Shown: positions 5,435 to 61,000 of the stretch, piece after piece
Numbering within the stretch: position 1 is the stretch's first letter
Layout: every line of letters begins with the position of its first letter
From: Diphasiastrum complanatum
Lineage: Eukaryota > Streptophyta > Lycopodiopsida > Lycopodiales > Lycopodiaceae
Direction of reading: 5' to 3'
DNA length: 64,000 nucleotides
NCBI GenBank assembly: GCA_029204225.1
Contig: CM055097.1
Coordinates: forward strand, 48,754,052-48,818,051
The notes under the pieces: generated by a model
Told to the model about the DNA's origin: nothing
The model's input: only the letters and a program-made list of their open reading frames with translations
Databases searched by the model: none
Position numbers and translations under genes: made by a program

Positions 5435-5695
5435 AAGCTTGATTCTGACTAGATAAACAGATACAACAAGATTTTCACAGAAAACTTTACAGGTTGCTCG
5501 CGTATCAAGATGCGCCCCTCAAAAAGAAGGAACATGCGGCCAGCATGTGCTTTAAAACCTGTTTTTTTTCCCAACCCAGTACATTCCGGAACGTACTGTA
5601 CGGAACGTTCAGTACATTCCGACCCAAAAGGGTCAGAACGGATTTCTAAGCCACACGTGCATAATATTTGACTTGAACACTTGAAACGTACTTAC
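5435..5695. other. Intron 11 segment with a small GGAACG palindrome cluster
   Basis: Between the 48-bp repeat and exon 12 candidate. At about 5580-5640, CATTCCGGAACG, TACGGAACGTTC and ACATTCCG repeat one motif in both orientations. No gene was seen. Confidence 0.4.
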
Positions 5696-26900: not shown

Positions 26901-29900
26901 CTAAAACTTAATAAGAAACCAAAGGACCCTAATTATATGGTCCAAATGACAAATACTCACAATGCATACCCACGGTCCCTATAGATGCCCTGAGCATTAT
27001 CTCTAGCCTATACCTAAAAAAGTCCTTACTACAATGGAGAACATAAACTCTCTCATGAAGGATGTAATTTTCCAACAAAAGAAATTTGCTTTTCGTAATA
27101 TAGCATGGTAAACTGATTATCATATATCTTTATGGTAAAATCTATAGCCAAGAGCATTATCTACTCATTCTAAAAAAAATTAAAGCAAAAGGTTAATAAA
27201 TCAAAGCGAAAATGTTGTGATGCAAGAGCATCGACTTTATTAACTATAAATGGTGAGGCTTAATGTGTTGAATTAAATGAAAAGATGATTCCCTATATGA
27301 CAGGAGATGAACAAAGTGTACAATATGCATGCACTAGCATTTTTTGAAAAAGTCCTAAAAATTATGCAAACCACAGATGCAACCCACACTCCGAAATGTC
27401 CTGAAACGCATTTCGGGAAATTAGAGATCAAGTTTCCCCGAACGGAAAAAAAAAAAATTTACTAAGCAATTTAAAATAGAAATTTAAATAAATAAACGGC
27501 ATTAATTTTTTTCTTTAAACTTTTCCTTGATCAACTAAACTATCAAAAAAATAGATGTAGGTACCCATTCCTAAAAAGTGATAAGTAAAGGACTTGTAAA
27601 AGGTCAGTGATGAGGCCATGAAATCCAATTACATCAATGATGGATGTGTATAAGATTGCCAGAGATGACAAAGAGACAGCAAGCAATTATTCCTAGAGGC
27701 AGATTATGATCATAGGTAGGTTATGTAAGGCTGCCATGACCATCTCCAAGCTATGAAAGTGAACATCAAGTTGGAAAAATATGTGCTTCTTCCTATACTG
27801 ATTGCACCTACAAGAAGATAATCCCCCTAACCATGGGAAGTGCTCACATACCAAGTTATTATCATAGAATTACATGAAGTATCACATACAATGATAATGA
27901 ACAGCAACCTGATGAGTCATATAGCAGTCTCCAAGTAATGAAAAACAATGAGCATCTAAACCAAATTGTATTGCATATTATCTATCTTCATGTTATGAGA
28001 TAACTTTGGTTTATACAGCTTTTGTTATATATATCTATTGCATACTATATAATTTAGGTTTCTCTATATAGTAAACATTTTACGCCACCTAAAGTAACAA
28101 AAAACTCTCCAGCCATTAGTGTCTTTTCAAAAATAAATAAAATTTGTGATCCAGGTCCCAAATCACTGACGATCCTGGAATGTCCGTTTCACATTGTTTT
28201 TTGCAACAGATCTGCTGCAGCAGCTATAATTTCAACACACCAAGGACATATACACCATGACAGGTAGGTAGAGGACTGAAAAAAACCATTAGAGCTTGGG
28301 CTAAGAAATGAGAGAATTTTTTTTGAAATATTAAGGCATGGTATGATTAAGAGTTGCATATCCAATTTACTAATGTGCAAATGAAAAGACAATCTTAGAT
28401 GTTGGAAACAAATCTTTCCTCAATCCAAGCCTTAAACTAACCCTGAACATAATAATGAAAGATGAAATGGCAAGCTAAACAATTTGTACTGCTTGATTAC
28501 ACAGCAGCTCAAAAATTAGGAAAATTCTTGGAATCACACATGCAAGTCCAACTTGTAAAAAAGATCTTAATAAGCACTTCTAAGGATGGGTTTTAACCTC
28601 CATATTCTTAAAATTTGCAAATGCACGGAAAGCTGCATAATACACTAGCAAACGACGATTCACAACACCACGCCTCATTTGCAAATCTCCTAGGGCAAGA
28701 GTGCATAGCTCATCTTCAAGCTCATTGGAAATTTCAACCTCCCTTGTAACTGCTTGAGCTTTGAAATCTTTGGCCGCCCCATTTCTCCATTGCTGTAGAA
28801 GATCAAAGATCTGCATGTGCAAGATATGTAAACATGTCAACATTTTTCTTGATAAGAAAAAAATCAAGACAGATGCACGCTTCTCAGGGCTAATCAAAGG
28901 GGTTCGCTTAAGTAGGACTTTCAGATAGGAAAACCATGAAACAGAAAGTATTATAGCATAAACATTGACAATCTACTGTAAGAAGCAAACCGCGTGCACC
29001 AAAATAGCTGCAGAGGATCCTCTCTCTGGCACCAAAATAAATTCTTTTCATTTGAGTCGTGCATACGTTTGTTATAGGTTAAGTCAGTTCATGGATCCAG
29101 TTACAAAAACTCAGTATAAGTATTTGCTCAAATGTTCAGGATCATAACATTTTAGGAATGTAGAAATGGGAGGCACTAGCATACTGTAAGCCTTAAAGCA
29201 ACAAATTATTCACACTAAAAACAAGCCAAATTTTGAACTTGTACTTCATGCTAAAGCATAAAATGCAACTTGAATCTTCATTCATAAATGCACATTAAGT
29301 TTCAGAAAATGTTCTGAGAAACCCAATCAGAGATTTTCTGGAACATGCCAAAAAAAATTATCTTTTGGGTTTTTTTTATTGGTGTCAATGGCTTTTTTCT
29401 AGTCTTTAAGTTTTTTGGATAGTTTAAAAGCTATTCGATTAGTTTTTTATATTTTTACTGTTTTTGTAGGGTTTTTAGGTTTTTCTGAAAAAAAAAAAAG
29501 TGTTCCTGACAGCCCGCTACATCTACGGTTCATTTAAATCATCAAAAGCATGGACAAAATCTCTCTTTTGTGAGACTGGAATATCTAAAATTTACGGATT
29601 TGGTCGGAAAGGTCCATAGTTTCGCAGCGTATGGAACGTTGTTTAATATATACCAACCGCTTTCTGAAGCGCTTTTTTTTAACATTAAAAGTCAGAAAAA
29701 AATACTCTCAAAAAACCTGTTGTGTTTTGTACCATAGGTCCTGCGGTACTGGGTACCGCAGATCCCGGTACCGCGGGACCGTATTGGTACCGCGGTACCA
29801 TGTTGGTACCGCGGTACCACAATATAATATATTATTTAATATTTAATATTTTTTTAAATTTCTTTTACCTAAACCTACCCGCCCCCCTCGCATTTCATCT

Positions 29901-32900
29901 CAAATTTTTTTGCGCCCTCCTCCGCCCTGCCATCGCTGTTGTTTCTGCCTACCTGCCTTCTGATTCCTTGAGTCGCCCTTCGCCCACGCAACGCCTTGCC
30001 TTGCATCTGACTTGCTTCGCCCTGCCTTCGCCCATTTTCAGCGTCTCTCCAACAGTGAACCCTGCTGTTTTTTTTCCAGCAATCCATCCCTCATTTCATC
30101 TGCAATGGTGCAATCCGACCTTTCCGGTCTGTGGGACGAGGTAGACATTGTCAGGTGGGTTGCCGACAAGGCCAACAAGACCGGTCAGAAGATCGTGCGC
30201 TGCCGATACTGTCTCGTCGAGTTTGTTGCATCCCTCACTCGCCTTAAAGGCCATCTGCTCGGTGCACGCACCAAAAATGGTGCCACCTTGAATGCTGCCC
30301 CTTGTGGCAGCATGACCGTCCCCGACAGGCAGCAACTACTAGACACCTACGGGCCGCGGCTCGTGGCAGGGGAGAACACCATTTCGGAGGGCATTCTCTG
30401 ATCTTGCACCGCTCCTTATGTGGCTGACCCAGAGTTGCTGCCTGCTTGGCTGGCACGCACGAGGAGAGGGAGTGCATCCTCCTCCAGTCCCTTTGCCCCT
30501 CATCCCCCTCAGACAGTTTTGCCTCACACACCCCCATCTGCTCAAATTCCGGTGGATCCCGTCCCATCGCGTCCGCCAGTTGCCACTGCGGTTCCACCAC
30601 CACCCACTGTTGCTCGCACTCCCCCAGTCTACGACTTTCTCATGGACTCCGCCACCCGAGCAGGCCCAGGATGCTACTGTTGGGGCCTTCGAGGATGTGG
30701 AAGAGATCCCTTCTTCCTTCCCTTCCCATCCGGATGACCTCCTCAGCCAGCAGTTTTCGTACCCCATGCCAGATGTTGCCCCTCCACCAGTGCACCCCAC
30801 CTATGCTGCTGCACCCATCCCTGCCAGTGCATCCCACTCTCCCCATTCCACGTCTACAGCAGATGCATCCACCAGTGCCCAGCCTGTCGCGTCATCGTCC
30901 ATTCCCGTCACGGTTGGTGCACCGTGCTGGAGGTCCACCACCCGTCGCCCACTAGGGAGAGCCCTTGTGCAGCAGACCATTTGCAGCGCGCATCAGCCGC
31001 ACATGGACAAAGAGGCCACACAGGCCGTGGCCAGTCTGATTTACGAGCTGAACCTACCCTTTGCCATCACCAACTCTAAGCCCTTCAGAAGGGCCTTCCG
31101 CCTTGCACAGTCTGTCAGCCCTAGCTGGAGAGTCCCTAGTTCAGAGGTTGTCCGCACACACATGCTGAGGGATAAGGTTGAGTCCTTGTCTAGAGAGATG
31201 GAGCCTCTGCGTCGGCACTGGGCCACTTATGGTTGCAGCATCATGTCCGATGGCTGGACTGATGTCAGGAGGAGGCCGATCCTCAACATACTGGTCTCCA
31301 GCTGCATGGGCACACAGTTTTTGAGGGCAGTGGATTGCAGCAGGGGGGGGAGAGTCATATCTGCAGAGTTCATGTTTGATGTCATCAGGTCTTCCATCCT
31401 AGCCATAGGCCCACAGCATGTCGTCACGGTGGTGACGGACAATGCCACGAATTGCATTCAGATGGGTGTACTGCTAGAGGCCGAGTTCCCTCATATTGTT
31501 CATATCCCCTGTGCAGCGCACGGCATAGACCTTCTGATGGGGGACATAGGAGCACTTCCCTGGGTTAGAGCCATCGTCCAGGAGGCCCTCTTCTTGGTGA
31601 CTTTTGTCACCAGAAAGAGGCGTTTTCTTGCCATGTTCCGGGTGTTCAGCCATCTGGACCTCCGTAAGCCAGCCCCCACACGCTTTGCATTCGACTTGGT
31701 GGTCATCGACCGTTTGATCAGGTGCAGGGCACAGCTTCTACAGATGGTTGTGAGTGATCTTTGGTGTGCCAGTACGTTTCCGCGAACTAAGGATGGGGAG
31801 CACTTTTCTTCCACGGTGAGGGGAGACCAGTTCTAGAGGGATGCACAGACATTGTCAGGACTGCTTCGACCACTCTACATTGTGCTCCGCATGGCTGACA
31901 ACGAGGGGTCGACACTTGGACTGGTGTATGAGCTCATGGACCGGATTGGACAGTTCCTGCAGCTGCCCATCTTGCAGCCAGAGAGGTAAGCGGTACAGTG
32001 TTATAATTGTTCTTTAGCTTTTCAATGGTTGCTAGTTTGTTTTTCTGTCAGTGTTAAGTATTTCGTAATGCCCTAAACCACATGCCTCTCACCTGCAGGA
32101 TGACAGAGCTGAAGTTCATATGGGAGACGCGGTGGAACTACTTCCACAGGAGTATCCACAGCGTTGCACACATGTTGCATCCCCTCTTCCTCTCTCCGAC
32201 ACAGATCGCAGACAGGGAACTCGAGGCCGATTGGCTTCAGTACATTCACAGGGTGGGTCCACACATAGGTTTGGATCCTATCAGGCTCATGGAGGAGCTC
32301 GCTGCATTTCGTTTCGGCATGGGCACGTTCGGTCACCCGGCTACTCAGGATCCAGAGAGGAGGCAGCTCCCCATTACCTGGTGGACCATGTTCGGCAGCA
32401 CCTATCCATCCATATAGCGTCTTGCACTGTGGGTCCTTTCACAGGTATGCATCTCATCTCATCCTCCCTTGCTGTGTTTCGTTGACGTTCCACCCGTGCA
32501 CATGCTGAACCATTTCATTGCACGTACCACAGGACTCCGCTGCCTCCGTGTGTGAGCGTAATTGGAGCACATGGGCACTCATTCACACGAGGAGAAGGAA
32601 CAGGCTGTCAGTGAGTCAGTTGGAGCGGTTGGTGTTCTGTAGCACCAACGCACGTCTCGCCAGGACACTGCCGACCATTACGAGCGCATTGCAGGTGAAA
32701 AGCTATTCTCCCATTGCATGTTGGTTGACGTCTCACTAAAATGTAGGTTTCAATCTTTGATCAAATTGTTTTCCTGACACGCTCAATTTTGGTCTTGCAG
32801 ACGAAGATATCAGATTTGGAGAGCCAGGTCGACTTGCCTACGGACAGCACACATCCCATACCTGTAGATGACCTGGGCACACAGTTGATGGCAGAGAGAG

Positions 32901-35900
32901 AGAGGGAGCTTGCCGAGATGAGAGAGAGAGATCTTGGGCTTGAGCACAGAGAGCCTCCATTGTTTGAGGGAGATGAGCCAGTGTCAGAGGATGAGCCCAT
33001 TCGGGTTGTGTTTGCCAGACCAGAGAGGGATGAGGCAGATTATACAGGTGCAGGGCACACGCCACGGGCAGGGGTCACAGGTGCATCACGTGGCAGAGGT
33101 GGGACACATGGCACAGGTTATACCGGCAGACAGGCAAGGCACACAGGGGGGGCCAGTGGCATACCTACCTATGTCGACATGATGGAGGAGGCTCTTGATA
33201 GAGGGCAGAGTGGTTTAGATGTCGGTCCCGCAGATGTTTGGATGTGTGCAGCACAGAGTCATGGCCGTTACTACGACAGCACACCAGAGGAGGCGCCAGA
33301 TGACTTTGATTGCACAGATTGGGAGGCCATGCAGGGTCTACAGGGTGCACATGATGAGGCACGGGATGATTCAGAGGTTGGTGCACAGGATGATTCAGTG
33401 GATGGTGCACAGGATGAGGCCCAGAGCCCAGAGCATTTGCATTCAGATGCCCAGCTGGACGACCTGATTGCCACATTTGATTCAGAGGCCCAGCAGATGC
33501 CGAGTGTCAGGGCACCCCCTTCATCTCTTGCCAGCATGCCATACACAGAGTCACAGAGCATATGCAGAACACAGAAATACAACCCCCCCCGATAGCATTT
33601 CATAAACACATACATCAGATTGCAATACACAAGGCACGCATTGCACAAAAAACACACCGTACATTAATTCATCAGATGTATCAAAATAACAATACGTATT
33701 CCCGCCACATACGGTTGGGGCTGTTTTTTACACTATGCTAGACACTAAATGTTGCCTCATCTACTGATGAACATTACATAACAACAGTCAGCCACATACG
33801 GCTAGACCCCATCTATGCTAAACATTCCTATGGATCCTCCACTGACTCCTCGCCCTCGTCAGGAGCATTGTTGTGTCGCTCTTGTTCTGCCTCCCGATTA
33901 CCCCGAGCTGCCTCCTGGCCAGCCCGACGGCGGGCAGCCCTTTCCCTGACCATAATGAGCTGTCGTCGTGTGAAGTTCATTCCGATCTGCTCATCCAAAT
34001 CCAGCTCGACAGCGGGAGCAGGGGCCACAGCGGGAGCGGGGATCTGCAGCTTTGGGTGTCTCTCCCGAGTTTGTCGCAGCATCTCTGCAATGTCTGCCTC
34101 TTGCTTCCGATGCCTTTCGTTGTGCCTTCGGACATCTTCCTCGAGCTTCCTCCTGGCTTCGCCTTCAGGCCTTGGTGGTATGCGCTCTGCCATCTCACGA
34201 CACCCTGTTTCTCGAACTGGCTCTCACAATGCCTCTCACAATAACTCTCACAATGCCTCTCACAGCCTCTCTCTCATAGCCTCTCACTGGCTCTCACAGC
34301 CTCGCGATTGCCTATTTAACCCCACAGCCTGTTCCCCCATGTGCAGTTGTTGATGATCCCTCCATGTGCCCTTGTACCTGTCCCCATTAATTGTGATGTG
34401 CTAATGTACCTGCTCCATGTACCTGTACCACATGCTGCACTCCGATTGGGTCCGTGGTCTGCTCCCCCACAGTGCCCATGTGACGGTGTACCTGTCCGGA
34501 TTTGTCCCATGTGCCTCTGTACCTGCCCCCATGTGATGCTCCCTCCCTGTGTTGGTCTCCCATTGGACCCATGGTCTGCTCACCCACAGTGCCCATGTGC
34601 TTCTGTACTTGCCCCCATGTGATGCTACCCCCCTGTGTTGGTCTCCCATTGGCTCCTCGGTCTGCTCACCCGCAGTGCCCATGTGCCACTACACCAGTCC
34701 CCTGCATCGTGTACTGTACCCTCTTTTTTTACACCCAGAACCCCTTTTTTTACTTTTTTTGTCCTTTTTTGGTAGTTAATATGCAAACAAAAATTATTAA
34801 AAAAAAAAATTTAAAAAAAATAAAAATGGTAACGCAGGTCTGAGGGCGGTACCGTACCGGCGGTACCACTGATATGGTACCGACGGTACCATACCAGCGG
34901 TACCACGGGGTACTATGTTTTGTACATATGGGACATAATCTGCTCCATACTGAAAGGCATGGAGCAAGTATTCATGGAGATGTCCATAATGTCACTAGGT
35001 AAAACAAAATATACATGCAAGCATAAATCACATCTGAAAAGTCCGTGTTTCAATATTGTTTGAGTCAGCATTCTTTTGAATGCTACACTGGTTGAGCACC
35101 TCTAAAATGCAATGTATAAATGGTTTATTATGTCTAAACCTAAGGAAGCGGATGGCAGACGCGAACGCGCGTTCGCGTCAGCGTTCCGCGTCCCCAGACG
35201 CGTCCGCCTTTTTTTTTTAAAAAAATTTTCATTTTTTGTGCTAAAAAAAAATAAATAAAAATAAAATTGGACGCCCGCTTTTTTTTTTTCATTTTTTGTG
35301 CTAAACAAATTAAAAAAAAATTGGACGCGTCCGACCTTGCATCCAGGGGTCGGACGCGTCAGGGTCTGGACGCCGGACGCGGAATGTCCGGCCCGGACCC
35401 TCATGTCTGGTCTAAACAGTCTCTTTTAAGGCAAGCCAACGTCATTCCCTATTTTTTAATAATTTTCAAAAAGATTACAATTTTTTTCTGAAAACGTGCA
35501 ACTCAATAAAAGAAGATTAGCGCACATTCTGAAACGGAACAGGTTTTCTAATGTGTTTCAAATAAAAAACATTCAGGTCACATTCCAAAACAGAACACGT
35601 TCTGAACGGCGCATTCTGTAACAGGTGACTATGCATGCAAGCAAACAAGTAGAAAAATCATAACAAACCACGAAAAAAGAAGATAATCTTAGCTAGCAGG
35701 TATTACTCATCCTCTCATCAATACCTAAGTGCATAAGCTGCTTACTGGGTTTGAGAGAATCTGGATTCTTTTTGGGTAGACCCAATGATGACTAGAAGTA
35801 GATGGCACCAACAAGAGCAAATTAAAAACAAAAACAAAATGACAACAAAAACTTAACCACTTCCCTGGACCTTAAGTCACAAAGAAGAGTTAAAAGGAAA

Positions 35901-38900
35901 TAGACAACATTCAAAAGAACTATAAACAAATCAAGCTCCTGAATAGTAGCTTCAATTTTATTTGTATTTTGTATAGGAGCAATCATTAAATTGAAACGTC
36001 ATAGCTCTCCGCCTCCTTCAGTGACCTTCATTGAATTTTGACCTATACCACACTACTAGGAGGGTCACCTGAAATTAAACCTAAAATGTACTAGAATTGG
36101 ACCTAGAATGTACTGGAATTGAATCTGAAACTACTTAATATCCATTTACTGATAATCCTCTATGTTTTCTCTTTCTACTGATACCCATATTGCATATGTT
36201 TACCGGAAAAAAATTTGCAAATCGCGATTCGACCCCCAAGTGAGCGATTTGCAGGTTGCGACTCAGATTGCGATTCGCGAGTTCTCAAAGCAACTAGGGG
36301 ATAAAACCAACATTTCAGTGTAACACATCCCCCACCCTCCCTTTATTGCTATTTCGTTTTCTATGCAATCCACAAGACTTCTAAATTTTCAAATTTCTCT
36401 TTGCTAAGAATATTTCCTAAATATATCAACGACTTGGATGTTGGCATCAAAATAAAACAACTCGATCTTGCCACTTGTAAACTTCTCTCTTGTAAAAAGT
36501 TTTTCCAGTTGAACATATTCCATCTGTAAGTGATAAAAAAGGTTCGTCACCAGCTGAACATAGCTTTGAATGTCACAATAGAGTGTCAAATAGAGTGTCA
36601 TTGGGCCTATTGTAGTTGGACATCTTCAAAGAGCCTTCTCAACTAGATAGCATCACATGATGCCTTTGTCATTGCTCAATATTCTGATCAAGATGGATGG
36701 CAAAGTTATATCCGATTGCTCCTTAGGGCACCAAGAAATAGCTCTCAAAACCAAGTTAAGTATGCTCCTTTACACTCCAGCATCCATAAGCTCATTACTT
36801 GTTGAAACTAGCTGGTGATAGAATGCTATTTCCTCCCAGCCCCACCAGTATTTCAAGGCACAACATGTTCCAGCATTTGGTCACTCGGTCCCATCTATGT
36901 TGATTGGGCTTAAACCGATTCTTTGGGTCTTTTACCCTTCCATAACTAGTGTTGCTTAATAATCCCAAGCCCCAATGTGGCACAGTGAACCACCTGGTCA
37001 CCCCGGCTGCTTGCCAGTCAGAGCCTCTCAGTACATCTACTCTAACTCCGGTATTGATGTGTAGGCCCTTAATGGTAACTCTCAATCTCACATCTTTGAC
37101 AATTTGTCAGACGATCTCATTAGGTTGCTACTTGTGACAAACCCAACCCATCTTAGGCCAACCTTTCAACACGTTTAGGCTAGCTGCGACATTACGACTA
37201 GACCTATGATGGTAATTCTCGATCTCAATCTCTGGCAATTTGTCAAATAGTCTCATCAGGTCACTATTTGGGACAAACCTAACCCATCTTAGGCCACCTG
37301 CCTCTCTACAGTTACCGACCATCGCCATTCCTTACCATTGACTCCCTCTACAACCAATGGCTCGAGGTCAAGTTAGGTCCAAGACTGGAGCCTAACATAT
37401 ACCATTTGTTGATCTTCAATCATCTTGGTGCCAGCCCAAAGTGCATCTAAGTGACCTTGCAACTTCAACTCATTTTCATCATTACATTCAAAACTATATT
37501 TCCTTATTTGAATTCCAACATGCTTCTTATTTACTAATAAAGACTCTTTGAGGTTGGCACCTAAGCATGTCTCAGATGCATTACAAGATTTGAAGTGTTT
37601 TTGTGATTACTTCTATGCTTGACTAGCTTAAGCATGTAAATAGTTCATGTGTTGACGACTCTTCTCTGAGTGCATAAATTGAGAACTAAATTTATATGTA
37701 TACGCCATGGATTACTGAGCTGCTAGTGTTGTCTAGTTGAATTTTGTTGTCGATTTTTGGAGAATTAACATAATTTTTGAAGAGTTTTTAACTATATGGT
37801 CACTTTATAATCTTCTAAAATTACCATGTGTATCATTTTCCCTTTGATTCCAGGGTATGTCAATGTAAAGAAAAACAATCATGAAATAGCTTGAACTTAC
37901 TTTACGAGGCTTTTTATTTACCCCAAACAACCATTTTGCAAAGCCCCTCTACAAGAATATCCAAAAAAAGACAACTAGAGATTCTAATATTTTAGCACCT
38001 TGACGACTCAAAAATTTGGGACCATTCGGGAATGAAGTGCAATCATGCAACAGACTCAAGAATTGAAACAGACAAACTATTGTCTCAATTGTAATTGCTC
38101 TATTTACGCCACTCTAATGGACCGAGCATTATATAATATTGTGACACATCCTCTACTTCTCAAGTGACGGTGAAAATCCACATTTCTTTAATAGGACATA
38201 GGGCTGAAAACCTTTCAATATAAGGAGTCATAATGCCAAAATGAACTTTGATGTACTTCTTGCAGGTGATCTAGATAAGGGGTAAAGTACTGTTGATCAC
38301 AATCGTTCCTTAAACTCAACTTTGCTCAATGTTAGATATACTCAAAGTTGAGGTAGGTTGGGGTGAGGAATGCGTTAGTGGTACAGGACGATAACATCTC
38401 TCTAAATCCTAATCTTAGCAGGGTACAATTTGATATGAGCTCTAGGATTTTGCTAAATCTGTATACCATTGTGTTTTGTTCTAGCAAAAGATAGAGATGT
38501 TACAATGTGGAACCTTCCAAAGACTATCATTTAGGGTAAGAGTGTACCCAAATGACAAAGCAACCAATCTACAAGTCCACAATGAACATTAGGTCATTAA
38601 CAAACCCAGTACTCAAAACAACAATGTCTCAGGAGCCAATATAGATCCATGATGAAACACCACGGTATCAAGTCGATAACTCCTTATAACCTGGTTTTCA
38701 CTAGCCCTTGTCCACAAATAGAGACTCTCTTATGAGTTCATTTTCATGTATGTAAAAGCCTTTTCATTTTTGAAGTCCATGCCCAAACATACATGCCTAA
38801 AATATCTTTGGCATGTGTCACTTAACATTGAGCCATCCATGGCCAATAACTTGCACTTGGAATAATCCTGGGTAACTTTTTCTCAGATATGGTTGTTCTT

Positions 38901-41900
38901 GCATGACAATATACATGCAGCTCTTTGCAACATCATTGCCAAAAGTCACCGGTCTTATTTAAAACTTTTCATAGATCTTGGATGGGCCAATTATGGTGCA
39001 AAGATAGTTTCTTGACACAGAGAGTTATCTTTCTCCAGCGTCCACTTTGCAGAGGAACTCTGCTTCATTGTCAACTTTAGAAAGGGAGCTTTCTTTGTTT
39101 TCCATTGAGGGACCCTTCCAAGTGTACGCTTTTCAATAATAGACCCTGTTTTGTTAAGGGACAATCAGGCATCATAATAATCTAAAAAGCTTCTTCCATT
39201 CCGTCTTATATTTTCAAGATTCAGGTAACATCACCTTGAGTTTTTATAACAAAGCATGAAGGTACAGAGAAATACATAAAAAAAGAAAGCCTGGCTTAGA
39301 AACATTCAATTTCAAGACTTTCTATTCTGAACATAGACGGCTTTAATTGAAAGCCTCAAGCTTTTCAGCCTGAAATCACATCTTGACATCTTTTACTTTT
39401 GATTGAAATGATAGCAATGGCTTGACATTCAAAGACAAACAGGTATTCATGATTGCGTGAACCACCTGGAGAAGTGATCCCACACTATAGCCTCATGCTG
39501 CCCAGAAAAAGAATCCAACTTTATATGCAAAGAGTCAAAGAGTGCTCTCCAAACATAAAGAAAATTTCAGAACAGTATAAACAAAACTTGTTGCTTCAGC
39601 TGATGATTTTGCAGTACATACACATAGAGGTCAACCACTCAACACTGCTCTCCTCAAGCAAATTCTCCATGATTTTCTAGCCAATAAAAAGCAGAAGAAA
39701 CCCCACCTTCTCAGAAGCTTCTTGCATTACTGGCTTTTTGTTCATATAAGTGATGATAAGAGCAGCATAGCTGTAGTCATTAGAAGCTATTCCACGGGCA
39801 GTCATCCACTCCAACACATCATACCTGTGGGCGAATTTTTGATGAACACTTGTACTACCAAACTTATACCTCCCACATCATCGAATACAGAGAAGATATC
39901 CTCATGAATATAAGCAAAAGACCCATCTCATGCTCCGATTTATTTCCACAATAAAAGAGTCACTTGCAGTATAGATTAAATTGACATCACTTGTAGAGCT
40001 TGCCATACAGTTACGCAAGCCGAAGGAACTTTTAAAATGATGCTTAAGGGTCCCTTTGCAAACAAAAGAAGGTCCGTTGTTGAAAAGCGTACACTTATAA
40101 CGGTCCTTCAAAAACAAAATGAAATAAACAAGAAACATCAAGCCTTAATTCATGAATTGTAAACCTGGAATGAAAATTGAATGCACCCTTTACAAAGTTC
40201 CTTTAATCTATGCAAAAAACTTTCCCACATTGACAACTCTAAGGTAGCCTTCTCTGATTTTTGAACTGTCCAGGTCATTGATTCTCAATAGCACTGAATT
40301 CCAGCATTGTTGCCTGTTTACATTGTAGCAACTACTTGAACCAAACAAGAATCTGCTATTTTGTGCCACTTTGAGTTTGATATATAGCAAGAAGTGAATG
40401 AGCACAAGAGGAATATCCAAAGGCTAAGCACAACTTGCTCTTCGTAAGGATGTGCCATCACCTATGCCAAACTCGACAAAATGAATAATATGTCTTTCTT
40501 CATTTTTTTTTAATGTATATCGCTGTTAGGTCTAGGTCAGTTCCCAAACATAACAAAACAGAGCTGTCAACTCTTTAACTCTATGGAACACCACGTCAAC
40601 ATAATAAAGATTACATGATACAGTCAGTCATCCACCATAGTTGACCCATAGAACACTGTTCTGTACCTTCTAATACAGAAGGTATCGCATTACGTATGTA
40701 CAGAACAAATGGATTACCTACAATTTTTCAGCTTAAGTTTTTGACTACGACTTTTGATAGGGGTTTCAACTTCCAAGCTACAATTTTGCAAGAGCTTTCA
40801 AGTTATGATTTCCCAGCTGATTGTTTTCCAGCTTCAGCCATTTTTGCTATTACAATCGTTTTCCTGTTATGGTCGTCTTTAACTGATCGTTGTCCAGCCA
40901 CGATCATTTTTAACTGATAGTTTTTAGCTACGATCTCAGCTAATAGTTTCCAACATAGTTATGAGAAACGTTTCCCACCCGGGAGACACAAACCCCCCTG
41001 GGAAACGAGAAACAAGAAACGTGTTTCCCCATTTGGGGCACGACCGTTTCCCATGTTCGTTTCCCAGGCTTGGGGAAACGAGGCATGCTGGGAAACGCGT
41101 TTCCCAGCCAAAAAGGGCCGGGAAACGCATTTCCCCAATACTATGGTTTCCAAGCAATCTTTTTTTAGTATGATTTCCCAGCTATAGGAGCATTTTTAGG
41201 GGTATTGGGGATTTTTCTTTAAAATCAAAAAATATCAAATAAAATAAGTATCTAACATAATTTTTTTTAAAAGTAACAATATTAGTACAGAACATCATTC
41301 TATACATGCCCATTTCATAAGCTACAGAACTATGGGTTGACCTATACCAACAAACAGTCAATGCACCTTCTTACTTCATTAGCTGTTAAAAGGTGGCGTA
41401 GATTTACTTCAGATATAGGAGTTAAGTTATCACTTGAACAATAACGACTGAAATATATCTCACATAATCATTTTGATTACTTCATGAGAGCTTGTGTACA
41501 ATTCATATACAAAATGATTCCAGAACACATTCTCATCATCCTCTAAACACTTTCCTAGATAATCTTTCCCGGTACTGGACCTTTATGTATTCCAATGGAT
41601 TATAATACGATTTGTAGGTATGTTCTTATGTCAAGATCATGCCTTCAAATGGAGAGCATGGCACCAACCCACCTCATATTGGAGGACACTGTTGGATATT
41701 CTTGAGCATCAAAGTTTCTTACCTTTGAGTTTCTGCGAGATCATGCCTTTAAATGGGAGACATGGCATGATTTCTTCTATATTTATAACTTCATTGAATT
41801 TTTACTTGTCATCCTAGGACAATGATTTCAAAATGTCCAAAAATCTTTCAGCATGGTTTTCAAGCGTCCTTTGAGGCCTTTATATTTCGTTCCACTCACC

Positions 41901-44618
41901 AGCATCAGGGAAGAACAGTATTGAATACATACATATGATTATCCATATGCATGTGTGTTTCTAAGCACAGATCACACATATCATATGAATTAAGTTTCCC
42001 AAGAACTTCCAGGCTTATGTCAAGTATTCTTATGCAAATGTTCCTTTAATATCCATATGAATTTCTGAGGTTATTGTTAATATGAAAAGAAATCATTTCA
42101 AACTTGACTGAGCACTTAGGTCATCAAATGTCTAACAAAGGAATGATTACATGGACAAAGTAACCTGGATTTTTGGGTACCACTGCATGGCAGTTCAATT
42201 TTCGTTACGGGATGCGTGTCCCGAATCTCTATCCACTTACTGACGCGTACTGTATAAATGAAAGCAACGCATATTTAAGATACATTCCAAGTGATTGATT
42301 TCCAGCCTCATTCCTATTCTCCTTGAAAGTGAAAAAAGCCACAGAGTAAAGCTGCACTATAGAGGGTATAATGTATATGGGTGAAATAAAACACCCGCAG
42401 TTCTGCACCATTTCCTACCCTGACTCTAGCTGCTACAAAGATAGACATGCCACAGTTGTCACGACGTCATTTAAGCTTTAATGGTAATTTTGCTACTTAT
42501 CGATGAAATTTTTGCTCAGGAAATGTCAAAGTTATATATTAAATCCATGTCTTTTTATAGTAACAAAGTTGTATACACTTTTCAGCGAAGACATAAAAAC
42601 TTATTAGCAGAAATTCAAAAGTATGAAAACCTACACTTTGTCCGTGCGACCAGAAACTGCACACGCATTCAATAGTGAAAGAAACGTTTCCAACGTTGCA
42701 TGACCTCCGTAAGCCTCCATTTCTTGCCACACCTGATAATTCCACAACAGTTAGCCAACTGCACCATTCAACTTGTTTAGTAATGAATTATTTGTTGACC
42801 CTTTGTACTCATTCTTACAAAATATAAGGTTAGAAGAAGCACCTTTTCAGGTCATGTTAAATCAAATATGCTGGAGCGGCATGTATGTCAGATGTCGACT
42901 GATATGGCAATACTTATTCAAACTAAGAAAACTCCTGAAAAAGAATTTACCACCTTCCAAAGAAGCTACATTGTGTAAGCTACTATAAACAGGCAAGATC
43001 ATTCTATTTTAGAATTACTTGTGATCGATTATGATAACAAAATCACTCTGGAAATAGAGCTACACATCAGAGACGTGAAGTAAAACATTCATGTAATAAA
43101 GATTCATCCTAGCTGATGCTTGAACTACTGACATGAATCACAGCTATGTAAGATGTAACATAGAAGGAAGTGTCTGAGGTGTGTTTGATCACCATGCACT
43201 GAATTGAAATAAAGATCTAGTTTAATACTTGAGGCATTCAGATAGACTTTGTACATAAATCAATGGATGTACAAAGAATAACATCACAATAGATCTCAGG
43301 ATTGAATCACTAGAGGTAGAACTCTAGCAACTGAAATTCGCTAATGGTAGAAACATTCCTAATGGAGCAGCAGGCCTGTTATTTGCACAAGAATGCTAAT
43401 TACCCTTTGAATTAATTTACAAGACTGTTAAATAGCAGTAACTACTGCTAACTAATCTGTGGTTAGCTGTAATAGAACGTCCGTTGAAAGAATCTATGTT
43501 AGAAGTACATGAAAATTGTTATGTTGGTCATGAAGGTCGATATTCATTTCGACTTAGATCAACAGTTGTCGATCAAATTGGTAGGTTGGGTCAAATCGAG
43601 ACTCGGATAAAATCATTGGGTTGGATTTGACGTTGGGCTATTTCAACCTTGGATTTTCAATTTGATTCAATTCAACCTTGGGTCTAGTTTATTTCGACCC
43701 TAGAATGTTGAGGCTGAAATTTCAACCTTGGGCGGCCTTGGACTATTTTGACCCTTGAGCTGCTCTGTGATATTTCGACCTTGGACTATTTCAACCTTGG
43801 GCTATTTCGACCCCTGAGTACTTTACAGATTTAAAGCCTTGCAGGAAACACATTAACAATTGATTTGGTGTAGAAATCCCACACAAATAACGTGTTCTAT
43901 GGCCCTGTTTCAAGAACAAGCTAACTAACAACAAATGGTGTGATTAAATACATGCAGAGATGCAAAGGGCAACGTGTTGAAATTTTTGAAGGTTTACATA
44001 ATAGACATGGCACTGACTCCAAAAGAGACAAATATGCTGCAGCAATCAAGGAAGATAGATACGGATCGTGAAGGAGCAAGCAAATTCACATAAACATAGA
44101 TTTGGAGATATAAAACATGAAACAAGGGGCAGATCATGCAGCACAGCTGTATACACCTACAATGGATAATAAAACCATGAATGAACAAAAAAAGCAGGAG
44201 GTCGCGAGGAGCAGTCGCGAGGAGCAGGAGCAGGAGGTCGCGAGGAGCAGGAGTCGCGAGGAGCAGGAGCAGGAGGTCGCGAGGAGGCGATGAGTTTTTT
44301 TTTTTTTAAAAAACGGTTCGAACAGTAGTAAAAAAACGGTTCGAACCGGACCTTTTCGGAAAGGTCTTTCAAATCGCGGTTCTTTCAATGAATCGCGATT
44401 CGACACAACTATGACTGTCACATATTATTGAATTTCTCAAACATGGCCTTCAAGTTTGAAAAAAATTCAATCATAAAAATCACTTAAAATAACATCCCAT
44501 TTTCATTAGTATATTGAAAGTGAAAGTGACCTGAAAGGCATGATCAAAGTGATTGCATTTACCACATACTGCAATGATCCAATTGTAACACAATACCTGC
44601 ACATAAGTCAATGGCTTT

Positions 44619-51000: not shown

Positions 51001-54000
51001 AATTTTGAAAACTCAACAAAGACTTTCAATTAATTTCAAAACTGTGAAGCAAATTACCTCTTATCCCATTTTGTTGGACAAGATTGAAAGTTATAGCAAT
51101 GTCTAAATTGATCTAGTACATTTAAAGGTTAAAAGGATGCGAAAAGGCAGGATCCCCAAAGTAGCAGCTTAGAATTGCAAGCAACCTCAAAGACAACCGT
51201 GGACGGTATTGATAAATATAAATGGTTTTCATTGGAAAATAAATAACTTAAACTGCATAACCCTTACAGTATATTCCACCCAATCCTTAAAACACTGCAT
51301 TTTATGCTTAGCAGCAGCCAATCTGAAGGCACCATCACGTACATAAGAAAGTTGGAACCAAACATACATCTGGAACAAGGCCCATGGATTTCATTTCTTT
51401 AAAAAAAAATAGGGCATCTTGTACGCGAGAACCCTTGGTGCATCCTTTTAAGAGAAGGTAGAATGAGTCTTGAACTGGTTGTACTCCGTCCAGTAGCATA
51501 TCCTCATATACATCACGAAGCAAGAATGCTCTGCACATCCCACAATGCAATGAAGCGTTTACACAACATCTGCAATACTCGTAACTATGTAAGTTTAAAA
51601 ATATCAAAGTTTCCAAGCATGAAAATATAATCAATACCACAATGCAACGAAGCAGGTACACCACATTTATTCACAACTATCTAAGATTGAAAGTACCAAA
51701 AATTCCTGTTTCCTCATAATCGGCAAGGGCTGTTGAGCAGATCAGATTAAAATGACCTTCAAATATACCATGCACTATTCGATATTTTAAATCTGAATAA
51801 GAAAACATTTTTATCACATAAATCAAGATTTGGTGGATGTAAATGCGTAACACGTTACACAACCTTCTCTGCCAATTAAGTGACATGAGAGCTTTATTAT
51901 ATGAAAGGAGATCATTTGCATAACTCTTGTGGATTGTCGCAGGTGCTGTTGAATATGTAACTGAATGTTCATGTGCTGCTCTAAAAGAAAATTTTTGTTG
52001 ACAATCGATTCTCTCCAGTGACACTATACCTGTGACATCAAAAGTGAAAAGACCAGCTTGATAAGGAAATAAATCCATAATATCTGGATATCTCACAATA
52101 TGTAAAACAGCTTTCCTTTGAAATCTGTAACAAAGCACAAAATACGAGACTGGAAAACTTTAGCTCACAAAAAATTCAACTCAAGGTGATATGAACTGAC
52201 AGATTCACTCAAGATCCAAATTTACAATCCAATGCAAAATGTGTTTACTGCAGGCTAGACATGTGTAACCCAAGCATGTTAAGGATTTTCGAATAAAATT
52301 TTGACGCTAGCACTGACCTACCGTATGCCCCCTGCTCTTACTTGTTACTTCTTCTACAATATATATACATCAGGGACTAGGGTTCCACCCACCACATTCC
52401 CACCCTAACTTTAAACCTGAACCAAATGGTAAATAAAAGGCACGATGCTCAACGACGAGCAATTCAGCAAAAGACTTTAATTACTGGACAGTTAGTGTTA
52501 CTGTCCACTCTCATCAAAACAAACACAGAGAGGTCCATAGTTTCTAGACCTTTTGATGGTTTGTAGCCTGACACAACATGAACCTTACATCGGTCTGTTT
52601 CACTATAAACGCCTCCATTTTCTTAAAGTTGAAGGTAGGAAACTAAGCTACTACTTTGCTTGCAGAATGCTTATATCACGTACAATGGAACATCAAAAAA
52701 ATGAGCATCTGTTTGAGCTCAAAAGAAATTTGAAATGCCTCTTGGCAATGCATAAGCATCTGCTCTTATACATCAAGTATTTCTTATTAGCAGAGAAGAG
52801 CAATTTCATGGAAAGTCAAAAGACTCCATATTGAGAGATTTTGATGTTATTTGCAAATTCAAGGCTCGCTCAGCTTCCGTTTAAGAGATGGAAGACTTGA
52901 ATCCATGCTGCAAAACATAAGGAAAAGCTCTTGCATAATCATCCAGTCTTTGGTTTTAATTTTGCAGAAAGCACACTTGATTTAAACTGAAGCAACCAAA
53001 GCATTTTCTGATTTGAACAAATGATAACCTTTTTCATCAAAATATTTACACATAATACTTGCCACAACTATGGAAACCTTTGGGGAAAGTTGGTATTCAG
53101 ACTTATCCTGATGTTGTGGGCCTATGGAGAAGGAGTCACTCGAGCATGCAAGATTTTTTACTACATGGCCCTACACTTGCCAAGAACTTGCTATTTGTCA
53201 ATAAGAAGATGCAAACAGACATTGAAATAAGGTCTCTAGGGAGGCAATGTCAAGTGATGAAGGATGTAGTGTTGCTTGCCACTGGGATACAGAAAGGAGG
53301 ACTCTTCATACAACAACCAGAATTTATTAGGTGTGCACTATTGTATCTAGAAGCAAGAAAAAATTTGTATGGCTCAAAAGGCTAGGACACATAAGTGCTA
53401 AACTAAGTTGCACCATAACGTCGTTCCGGACCCCATGTTCTGTAACGCAGCGTTCCAGAACTCCGGAACACTATGTGAAAAAAACCTGGAAATTTTTTTT
53501 AAACAGCCGGGAAGTGACATTTCTAGCACAAGAGAAACAAACTTGTGGAGAGAGGAAGAGGAGCCCAAATGGGTAGTGTGAGCACTCTATGTGAAGGCCA
53601 TGATGAGTGGAAGATGAATGTAGCACATAGAAGAGGGCAACAGTGACTATGTGGAGATTTGCAAGCAAAGGAGCTTCTTGAAGCTTTTTTTAACCCTTTT
53701 TTTTTCCTTGCTTTGTTTGGAGGCTATAGTGCATCATTTTGAGTGATTCATGTCGCTAGGATTGGTCATAGCATGGCTAGGGAGAATCAAACTTTCCTAA
53801 AACTCTCATACCGCTTTCTGATACACTCCACGTCTTTTTTGCTTTCAGTTTTTACCTTCTGTCATCATGTCTTCTACTGATACGAGCCAATGTCCTTGAT
53901 ATGTCGTTCATCGTGATGTTCCAATTGCAACGGACATCATGATGCTTCCTAGCACAAGCAGGGTGGCTGAGTGGATGACCCTTGTTGAGCCTTTGCTCAC

Positions 54001-60754: not shown

Positions 60755-61000
60755 ACTATGGAGAAAATCCAAAAAACCCGAAGGTGCCCTTAAAGTGAAA
60801 GTATGTAAATCTCGAAGGTGCCTCTAGAACGAAGGTAGGAAAAAATGCGAAAAAGACGAAGGTGGGCCTGAAATTGATTCTAAGGCATTCTGGCCACTAT
60901 GTCGCATTTTTCGCGAAGGTGCCTAAAAAATGGTTAAGGCACAAAAATCTCAAAGGTAAAAATGCGAAGGTCCGAAACATGTAGTCGGCCTTCGGTTTTT
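60755..61000. repeat. CGAAGGTGC motif array
   Basis: CGAAGGT(GCC) occurs about seven times in 245 bp, with GCGAAAAA/TTTTTCGC pairs and a reverse CCTTCGG near the end. CCACTATG occurs twice. Design resembles the MITEs at 40954 and 35140, but no borders were found. Confidence 0.5.

Follow-up and report, generated by a model that had tools for sequence, protein, structure and literature searches.

The binding of transposase to family-specific subterminal repeats is an established mechanism for transposons of the hAT superfamily, namely Ac and Hermes. The Ac transposase binds AAACGG hexamers, several of which lie in the terminal 200 bp (PMC3260210). The BED finger of Hermes binds short subterminal repeats, AAG(T/C), the first two of which form a quasi-palindrome in bp 11-27 where two fingers bind cooperatively, and contacts DNA via residues ahead of the zinc-binding histidine (PMC10368747). 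BED proteins derived from hAT transposases recognise diverse words, usually CGG or CGC, and these words match their own subterminal regions in all four hAT proteins that yielded one (PMC8097297). Here we describe a 64,000-nucleotide stretch of Diphasiastrum complanatum DNA (the window, C6:48754052-48818051 of the 1.74-Gb genome) with a large CATAG-ended hAT element and two miniature inverted-repeat transposable elements (MITEs), together with their relatives elsewhere in the genome. They belong to DUF659-type hAT families in which a family-specific subterminal array very probably serves as the docking platform of the family's own transposase.

An earlier note on this DNA proposed that each such element is built from its own repeated motif and that each motif is the binding site of a different transposase, and knew of no described family with this rule. 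In view of Ac (PMC3260210), Hermes (PMC10368747) and the hAT-type BED proteins (PMC8097297) the latter statement is too strong. A literature search over titles and abstract openings found no description of several palindromic motif classes among the DUF659 hATs of one genome.

Results

A hAT element with motif arrays at both ends

The hAT element of family A is laid out as follows.

29733-34917, + strand: family A hAT element, CATAG...CTATG, 5,185 bp, target-site duplication (TSD) TTTTGTAC
29752-29819, no strand: 5′ CGGTACC array with GGTACCGCGGTACC dyads, including three 19-bp tandem units
30105-30401, + strand: reading frame of a BED-type finger with a CCHC-like pattern (Pfam zf-BED E 0.086, below cut-off)
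30418-31836, + strand: transposase open reading frame with a DUF659 domain (E 1e-40)
34847-34904, no strand: 3′ CGGTACC array

Read directly, the TSD is an exact 8-bp repeat (29725-29732 and 34918-34925). CGGTACC occurs seven times in the 5′ 200 bp and six times in the 3′ 200 bp, compared to shuffled expectations of 0.10 and 0.06, and is absent from the 4.8 kb between the end regions. The GGTACC clusters noted earlier at both ends of this element are thereby confirmed.

The window element lacks around 1.2 kb of 3′ internal sequence found in the copies L009 and L010, which carry the same BED-type finger. A query of 291 residues of the window transposase returned 14,497 first-look candidates, of which the best 134 matches were scored. 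By hand count, 104 of these 134 have an open frame of 672 amino acids, with an in-frame TAG inside the match in 3 of the 104. One copy (L010/L012) measures 6,231 bp and has an exact 8-bp TSD, ATATATAT, but within an AT repeat; L009 and L010 are 99% identical across 5.3 kb. Because its copies are abundant and very alike, family A was probably active recently. In the L009 locus (59-510), an A copy that starts at 510 has end sequences of family A directly upstream (59-195 in inverted orientation, and 421-461), which suggests that A inserted near A ends.

Seven motif classes with coding sequence

DUF659-type hAT coding sequence was found for seven motif classes: CGGTACC, CGGTTC, CGGAACG, CGGACGC, CGTTTGAA, CGTTTGGA and CGTTTCCC. 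Places matching the Pfam profile PF04937 (best 150 scored of 10,620 candidates) seeded the loci of families B, C, E and H, and DUF659 is present in A. The copies read for CGGACGC (family D) and CGTTTCCC (family G) are degraded.

Family B has CATAG ends and CGGTTC sites; its copy L019 is complete with an exact 8-bp TSD and has sequence in common with L018, L020, L022, L023, L028 and L034. Family C, with CATGG/CAAGG ends and CGTTTGAA sites, is represented by L014, L016, L017, L021 and L024, all complete with exact 8-bp TSDs, and by L041 (TSD 7/8). Family E shares the CATGG/CAAGG ends and combines CGTTTGGA with CGTTTGAA; L026 is complete with an exact 8-bp TSD, and L013, L015 and L066 also belong here. 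Family H has CTTAG ends and CGTTCCGGAACG sites, with L035 complete and flanked by an exact 8-bp TSD, as well as L036 and L038. In the family C copy L017, a 171-bp tandem duplication of the BED-finger coding segment (around 1823-2160, oriented) results in two fingers; two BED-like matches are also seen in L062.

These elements are members of the hAT superfamily, with 8-bp TSDs, a DUF659/hAT transposase core and short terminal inverted repeats (TIRs). Exact 8-bp TSDs flank coding elements of A, B, C, E and H, the G and D MITEs of the window, and L003, L032 and L071. Among the best 150 PF05699 places, the domain lies next to DUF659 in C (C13:18199098) and E (C8:16035479 and C6:58922994). A CCHC-like BED pattern can be read in A, B, C and E, and in H in one copy of three. 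The TIRs match at 8-17 of 18 bp in A, B, C, E, H and G, and at 6 of 18 in D.

Each family has its own word

Counts of the seven words in MITEs and in 200-bp end regions form a nearly block-diagonal table: each word is enriched in the ends of its own family and near zero in those of the others. Off the diagonal, E also bears the C word, B_L019 and E_L026 have one G word each, the G MITE L003 has one B word and the window D MITE one H word. Every half-site can be written with CG first.

Because the words had been chosen from the elements counted, we made an end-to-end test in which the commonest 6-mer of one end (TIR left out) is counted at the other end and compared with 200 shuffles. Families A and B pass in both directions, with 0 of 200 shuffles reaching the observed level. 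The same level is achieved from 5′ to 3′ by all five C copies and D, and from 3′ to 5′ by two of the five C copies.

The expectation that a motif class matches the subterminal repeats of one autonomous hAT holds for GGTACC (A), CGTTTCCC (G), CGGACGC (D) and CGTTCCGGAACG (H), with the G and D matches involving degraded coding copies, and extends to three motifs outside the window (B, C and E). The idea of a different transposase for each motif is upheld to the extent that motifs are linked to coding elements family by family; for another motif, AATCGCGATTC, the one other copy read after a single DNA search is non-autonomous.

From the window MITEs to the coding copies of D and G

Two further families are represented in the window by MITEs.

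35140-35409, + strand: family D 270-bp MITE, ends CTAAGG / CATGTCTG, exact TSD GTCTAAAC, CGGACGC sites
40954-41145, + strand: family G 192-bp MITE, CATAG at both ends, exact TSD GTTTCCAA, CGTTTCCC sites

CGGACGC sites cover 97 of the 270 bp of the D MITE compared to 8.4 in shuffles, in agreement with the GGACGCG-type motif noted earlier. Its ends rule out a CATAG-ended element, and its relative L032, flanked by an exact TSD (GACCAGAT), ends in the same way. In the G MITE, CGTTTCC is found 8 times (0.12 in shuffles) and CGTTTCCC sites with at most one mismatch cover 86 of the 192 bp (3.7 in shuffles); the motif is strongly enriched, although "nearly all", as this MITE had been described, is too strong a wording for such coverage.

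Both MITEs lie inside larger structures. A possible element with exact flanking CATGCAAG and the ends CATAA and CATAG (35022-35633) surrounds the 270-bp MITE. The 192-bp MITE sits within a 688-bp CATAG-ended pair (40647-41334; TSD AGTTGACC/GGTTGACC, 7/8), whose ends have GAACACTGTTCTGTAC-type dyads without CG and which is perhaps an older CATAG element.

The G tip pattern CATAGTWTTGGGRAA has 240 matches genome-wide compared to 5 for the reversed control; tip positions are those of the first 100, complete for C1-C9. The 40 other scored matches to the window G MITE, one of them a second stretch of one place, are 80-92% alike, mostly in the 3′ part, and the MITEs L003 and L004 have an exact and a 7/8 TSD, respectively. 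Among the matches listed, at least 12 tip pairs made by eye are separated by 226-1,199 bp, so the window copy, at 192 bp, is one short form. A visual comparison of these tip places with the Pfam place lists yielded no pair among the matches listed.

We next chose by hand 20 unpaired G tips among the first 100 places listed (of 240) and examined the sequence 1.2-1.9 kb to the inside of each. Two of the 20 have hAT coding sequence, and one of these, L063, is G: a degraded DUF659 transposase stops around 320 bp before the G tip. The same order was found elsewhere by a DNA search with the 3′ part of L063 (best 40 of 141 candidates scored). In C1-C9, all four loci that match both the transposase coding part and the 3′ untranslated region carry the exact G tip at the expected place (C3:72.6M, the query itself; C5:20.50M; C5:20.10M; C4:49.70M). 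The sequence of L069 (C5:20.50M) extends to ...GGAAACGTTTCCCAAAACTATG; over 52 residues of its C-terminal part it is 61.5% identical to family C. Family G looks like an old, degraded family. A candidate coding partner of G, L062, was set aside, as the 6.7 kb read there contain just one G array. L064 is 53% identical to G across a short DUF659 fragment; no ends of L064, L065 or L037 were found in the loci read.

The D tips have 734 and 1,101 matches genome-wide compared to 0 in controls. Pairing by eye among the first 100 places per list gave two pairs 4.5 and 4.9 kb apart, both of which were read, and a third 2.5 kb apart (C2:53386979-53389448). L067 has a DUF659 transposase with stops between its D tips, encoded on the other strand with respect to the MITE, and its best stretch is 45.8% identical to B and 40.7% to A. 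The D tip pair L068 had no match to any transposase query used. A 77% inverted repeat across the D end of L067 (4518-4651) suggests that a second, oppositely oriented D end adjoins it.

Site type and transposase relationship

In the DUF659 tree, A and B (57% identical) are neighbours, H joins them next and D after that; C and E (62-67%) and G stand apart. The split of A, B, H and D from C, E and G has a local support of 0.82; G is grouped with C and E with a support of 0.83 on a short fragment, and a branch near L062 has 0.63. The words begin with CGG in A, B, H and D and with CGTTT in C, E and G, a perfect split with a probability of 1 in 35 under random labels. A Mantel test of transposase versus word, run on hand-rounded identities and one fixed 7-base word alignment, gave rho 0.46 and p 0.028 over all 5,040 permutations. 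Together these sequence comparisons suggest that the site type, CGG or CGTTT, follows the transposase tree.

The fingers were aligned by hand at the histidine that binds zinc, although they differ in its distance from the second cysteine. The positions corresponding to the Hermes contacts read S-T-R-G in A, T-T-R-G in B, T-T-R-A in H, G-Q-R-S in C and E, and N-S-Q-A in D, where a stop is nearby. This would fit a specificity determined by the finger, with one main contrast as its basis.

Arrays change by whole units

L022, on a chromosome contig, and L028, on a small contig, share 98% identity along most of their length including the flanks, and in both the CATAG tip is preceded by AAACTACT. 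Probably they represent one insertion in two versions, although an assembly artefact may also account for the pair. Their 5′ arrays are 40 bp apart in length, which reads as two 20-bp units. In family C, exact sites number 1 to 5 in the 5′ array of eight copies and 3 to 6 in the 3′ array of nine, and part of this variation consists of gains and losses of whole blocks next to alignable sequence. Arrays thus lengthen and shorten by whole units. The earlier idea that arrays grow and homogenise with the enzyme finds its first half in the B and C arrays; homogenisation by the enzyme is unsupported.

Family I, relics and CATAG ends

Other motif-bearing features of the window are the following.

5580-5650, - strand: second family-H-like relic, ends ...TTCTAAG, like the reversed H 5′ tip CTTAGAA (compare L035)
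44300-44413, - strand: family I terminal fragment, CATAG end, GAATCGCGATTC and CGGTTCGAACCG dyads
53414-53475, no strand: 62-bp relic CATAACG...CACTATG, family-H-like CGTTCC/CGGAAC sites, without TSD
60779-60922, + strand: CGAAGGTGC cluster, direct repeats, CCACTATG nearby, the word also starting with CG

Family I mixes CGATTC with CGGTTC between CATAG/CAATG ends, and AATCGCGATTC belongs here. In the window fragment GAATCGCGATTC (44390-44401) adjoins the single CATAG end (44409-44413), and no matching TSD was found within 42.5-44.3 kb. A 114-bp DNA query from this fragment gave 265 first-look candidates, of which the best 40 scored (itself included) are 90-100% alike. The copy L071 is complete and non-autonomous (736 bp) and has an exact TSD, CTCATCAT, with CGATTC sites at both ends. 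This one search and one other copy read revealed no coding partner of family I.

The relic at 53414-53475 is probably the 62-bp relic of the earlier note. It matches the CTTAG-ended family H by motif alone, and the exact string GTTCCGGAAC given as its motif is absent from the window. No element borders were seen on inspection at the CGAAGGTGC cluster.

CATAG ends, seen as a common mark of these elements, are not general: H has CTTAG, D has CTAAGG/CAGAC, and C and E have CATGG/CAAGG. The four CATAG cases counted earlier are probably the hAT element, the 192-bp MITE, the AATCGCGATTC fragment and the 62-bp relic. The ends of the first two stand; the fragment has one such end, and the relic has one exact end and CATAA at the other. 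Bare CATAG is too frequent to serve as an element marker (171 in the window compared to 125.5 expected).

Outside these families, nuclear contigs gave 16 matches to broken PsaA/PsaB fragments, as expected of plastid-to-nucleus DNA transfer and indicative of a photosynthetic host.

Discussion

We propose that the outermost bases (CATAG, CTTAG, CATGG etc.) would form the cleavage end of each family, and that the next 200 bp or so would hold an array of its CG-starting half-site, often in inverted pairs. By analogy with Hermes and Ac, the array is most likely a docking platform for several BED zinc fingers of the family's own transposase. The MITEs would be non-autonomous derivatives that retain tips and arrays and could be mobilised in trans, and tandem duplication or deletion of whole units would lengthen or shorten the arrays.

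A number of observations weigh against this proposal. The loci read are a non-random sample, hand-picked, largely from the PF04937, PF05699 and A-match lists, for diversity and an open frame. The count table is in part circular along its diagonal, as the words were derived from the same elements, and the alignment of half-sites on CG is post hoc. In the end-to-end test, H and E fail both ways, and the 3′ to 5′ direction is weaker for D (11 of 200 shuffles) and for the C copies L016, L017 and L024 (35, 4 and 14 of 200). H is asymmetric, with a single 3′ dyad at the tip inside the TIR, and so is E, with few 5′ sites. The finger of A stays under the zf-BED cut-off, the BED of D contains a stop codon, and neither the BED finger nor the 5′ end of the G coding copies was recovered in the loci read. 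The TSD of L067 is inexact and its flanks are AT repeat. Just seven families are compared, with essentially one CGG/CGTTT switch, and A, B and H scarcely differ at the contact positions while D does.

Could the arrays serve a regulatory or anti-silencing protein, like the VANC targets of VANDAL elements, and not dock a transposase? We consider this unlikely. In its favour, all half-sites contain CG, and CG is a methylation target in plants. VANC targets are also often tandem repeats that vary much between related transposable elements, as do the arrays here; VANC21 motifs, however, occur in non-coding regions including introns (PMC5735166), whereas the words described here are concentrated in the 200 bp or so next to the tips and are scarce between them.

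Passive, satellite-like growth, in which random duplications at the tips were frozen in each family without function, is very improbable. The whole-unit gains and losses in the B and C arrays and the 19-bp tandem unit in A are what such growth would leave. Nevertheless, in A and in B the two ends share a word though their 18-bp tips match at just 8-11 positions, CG is common to all seven words, and the Mantel test links the relatedness of transposases to that of their words. A structural role of the palindromes, as hairpins or cruciforms in DNA or RNA, with the sequence left free to drift between families, is scarcely credible, for although some dyads are perfect and up to 22 bp long, many sites are single half-sites in either orientation and at varied spacing, and the word itself recurs within a family.

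Docking of each family's own transposase is hence the reading we retain. A more far-reaching version, which we put forward tentatively as a possibility, is that the genome holds at least seven orthogonal pairs of hAT transposase and site, in which the bases outside an invariant CG diversified together with a few BED residues ahead of the zinc-binding histidine. If so, every pair would respond to DNA methylation through its CG anchor, the strength of an element would depend on the length of its array, itself altered by duplication of units, and elements reduced mostly to a docking site would be selected parasites of one enzyme each.

The specificity of BED fingers has been mapped for few proteins, and related families give matched pairs of enzyme and site. 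With the presumed binding words displayed many times in an element's own ends, such families could reveal the BED recognition code. They would also permit a direct test of how transposase and docking site can evolve jointly while staying functional, and of how MITE families come to be assigned to the enzyme that moves them.

Comparison with known systems

Like Ac/Ds, the families described here have 8-bp TSDs, word-rich ends and non-autonomous elements that share just the tips and some of the words, which in Ac/Ds are hexamers (PMC3260210). On the other strand, the Ac hexamer AAACGG reads CCGTTT, which resembles the CGTTT half-site that families C, E and G have. While Ac/Ds is one family with one motif, here seven coding families have different words in one genome, and one MITE has around 45% of its length in motif.

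The first half-site lies around 11-19 bp from the 5′ tip in representatives (35 in one G MITE), similar to Hermes; the sites of Hermes are AAG(T/C), compared to CG-containing sites and many perfect dyads here. CGGBP and hAT-19 are likewise hAT-derived BED proteins with differing CGG/CGC-type words, but these are animal and fungal proteins known from microarray data, without a comparison of site arrays (PMC8097297), whereas we describe DUF659-type elements of a photosynthetic host, with arrays. VANDAL/VANC of Arabidopsis also presents related proteins with different short, tandem-expanded target words; it is another kind of transposon, with an anti-silencing function and sites beyond the element tips (PMC5735166).

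Compared to these systems, it is the density of motifs in MITEs, the CG-anchored dyads, the radiation of several families in one genome and the visible turnover of arrays that are new or unusual here.

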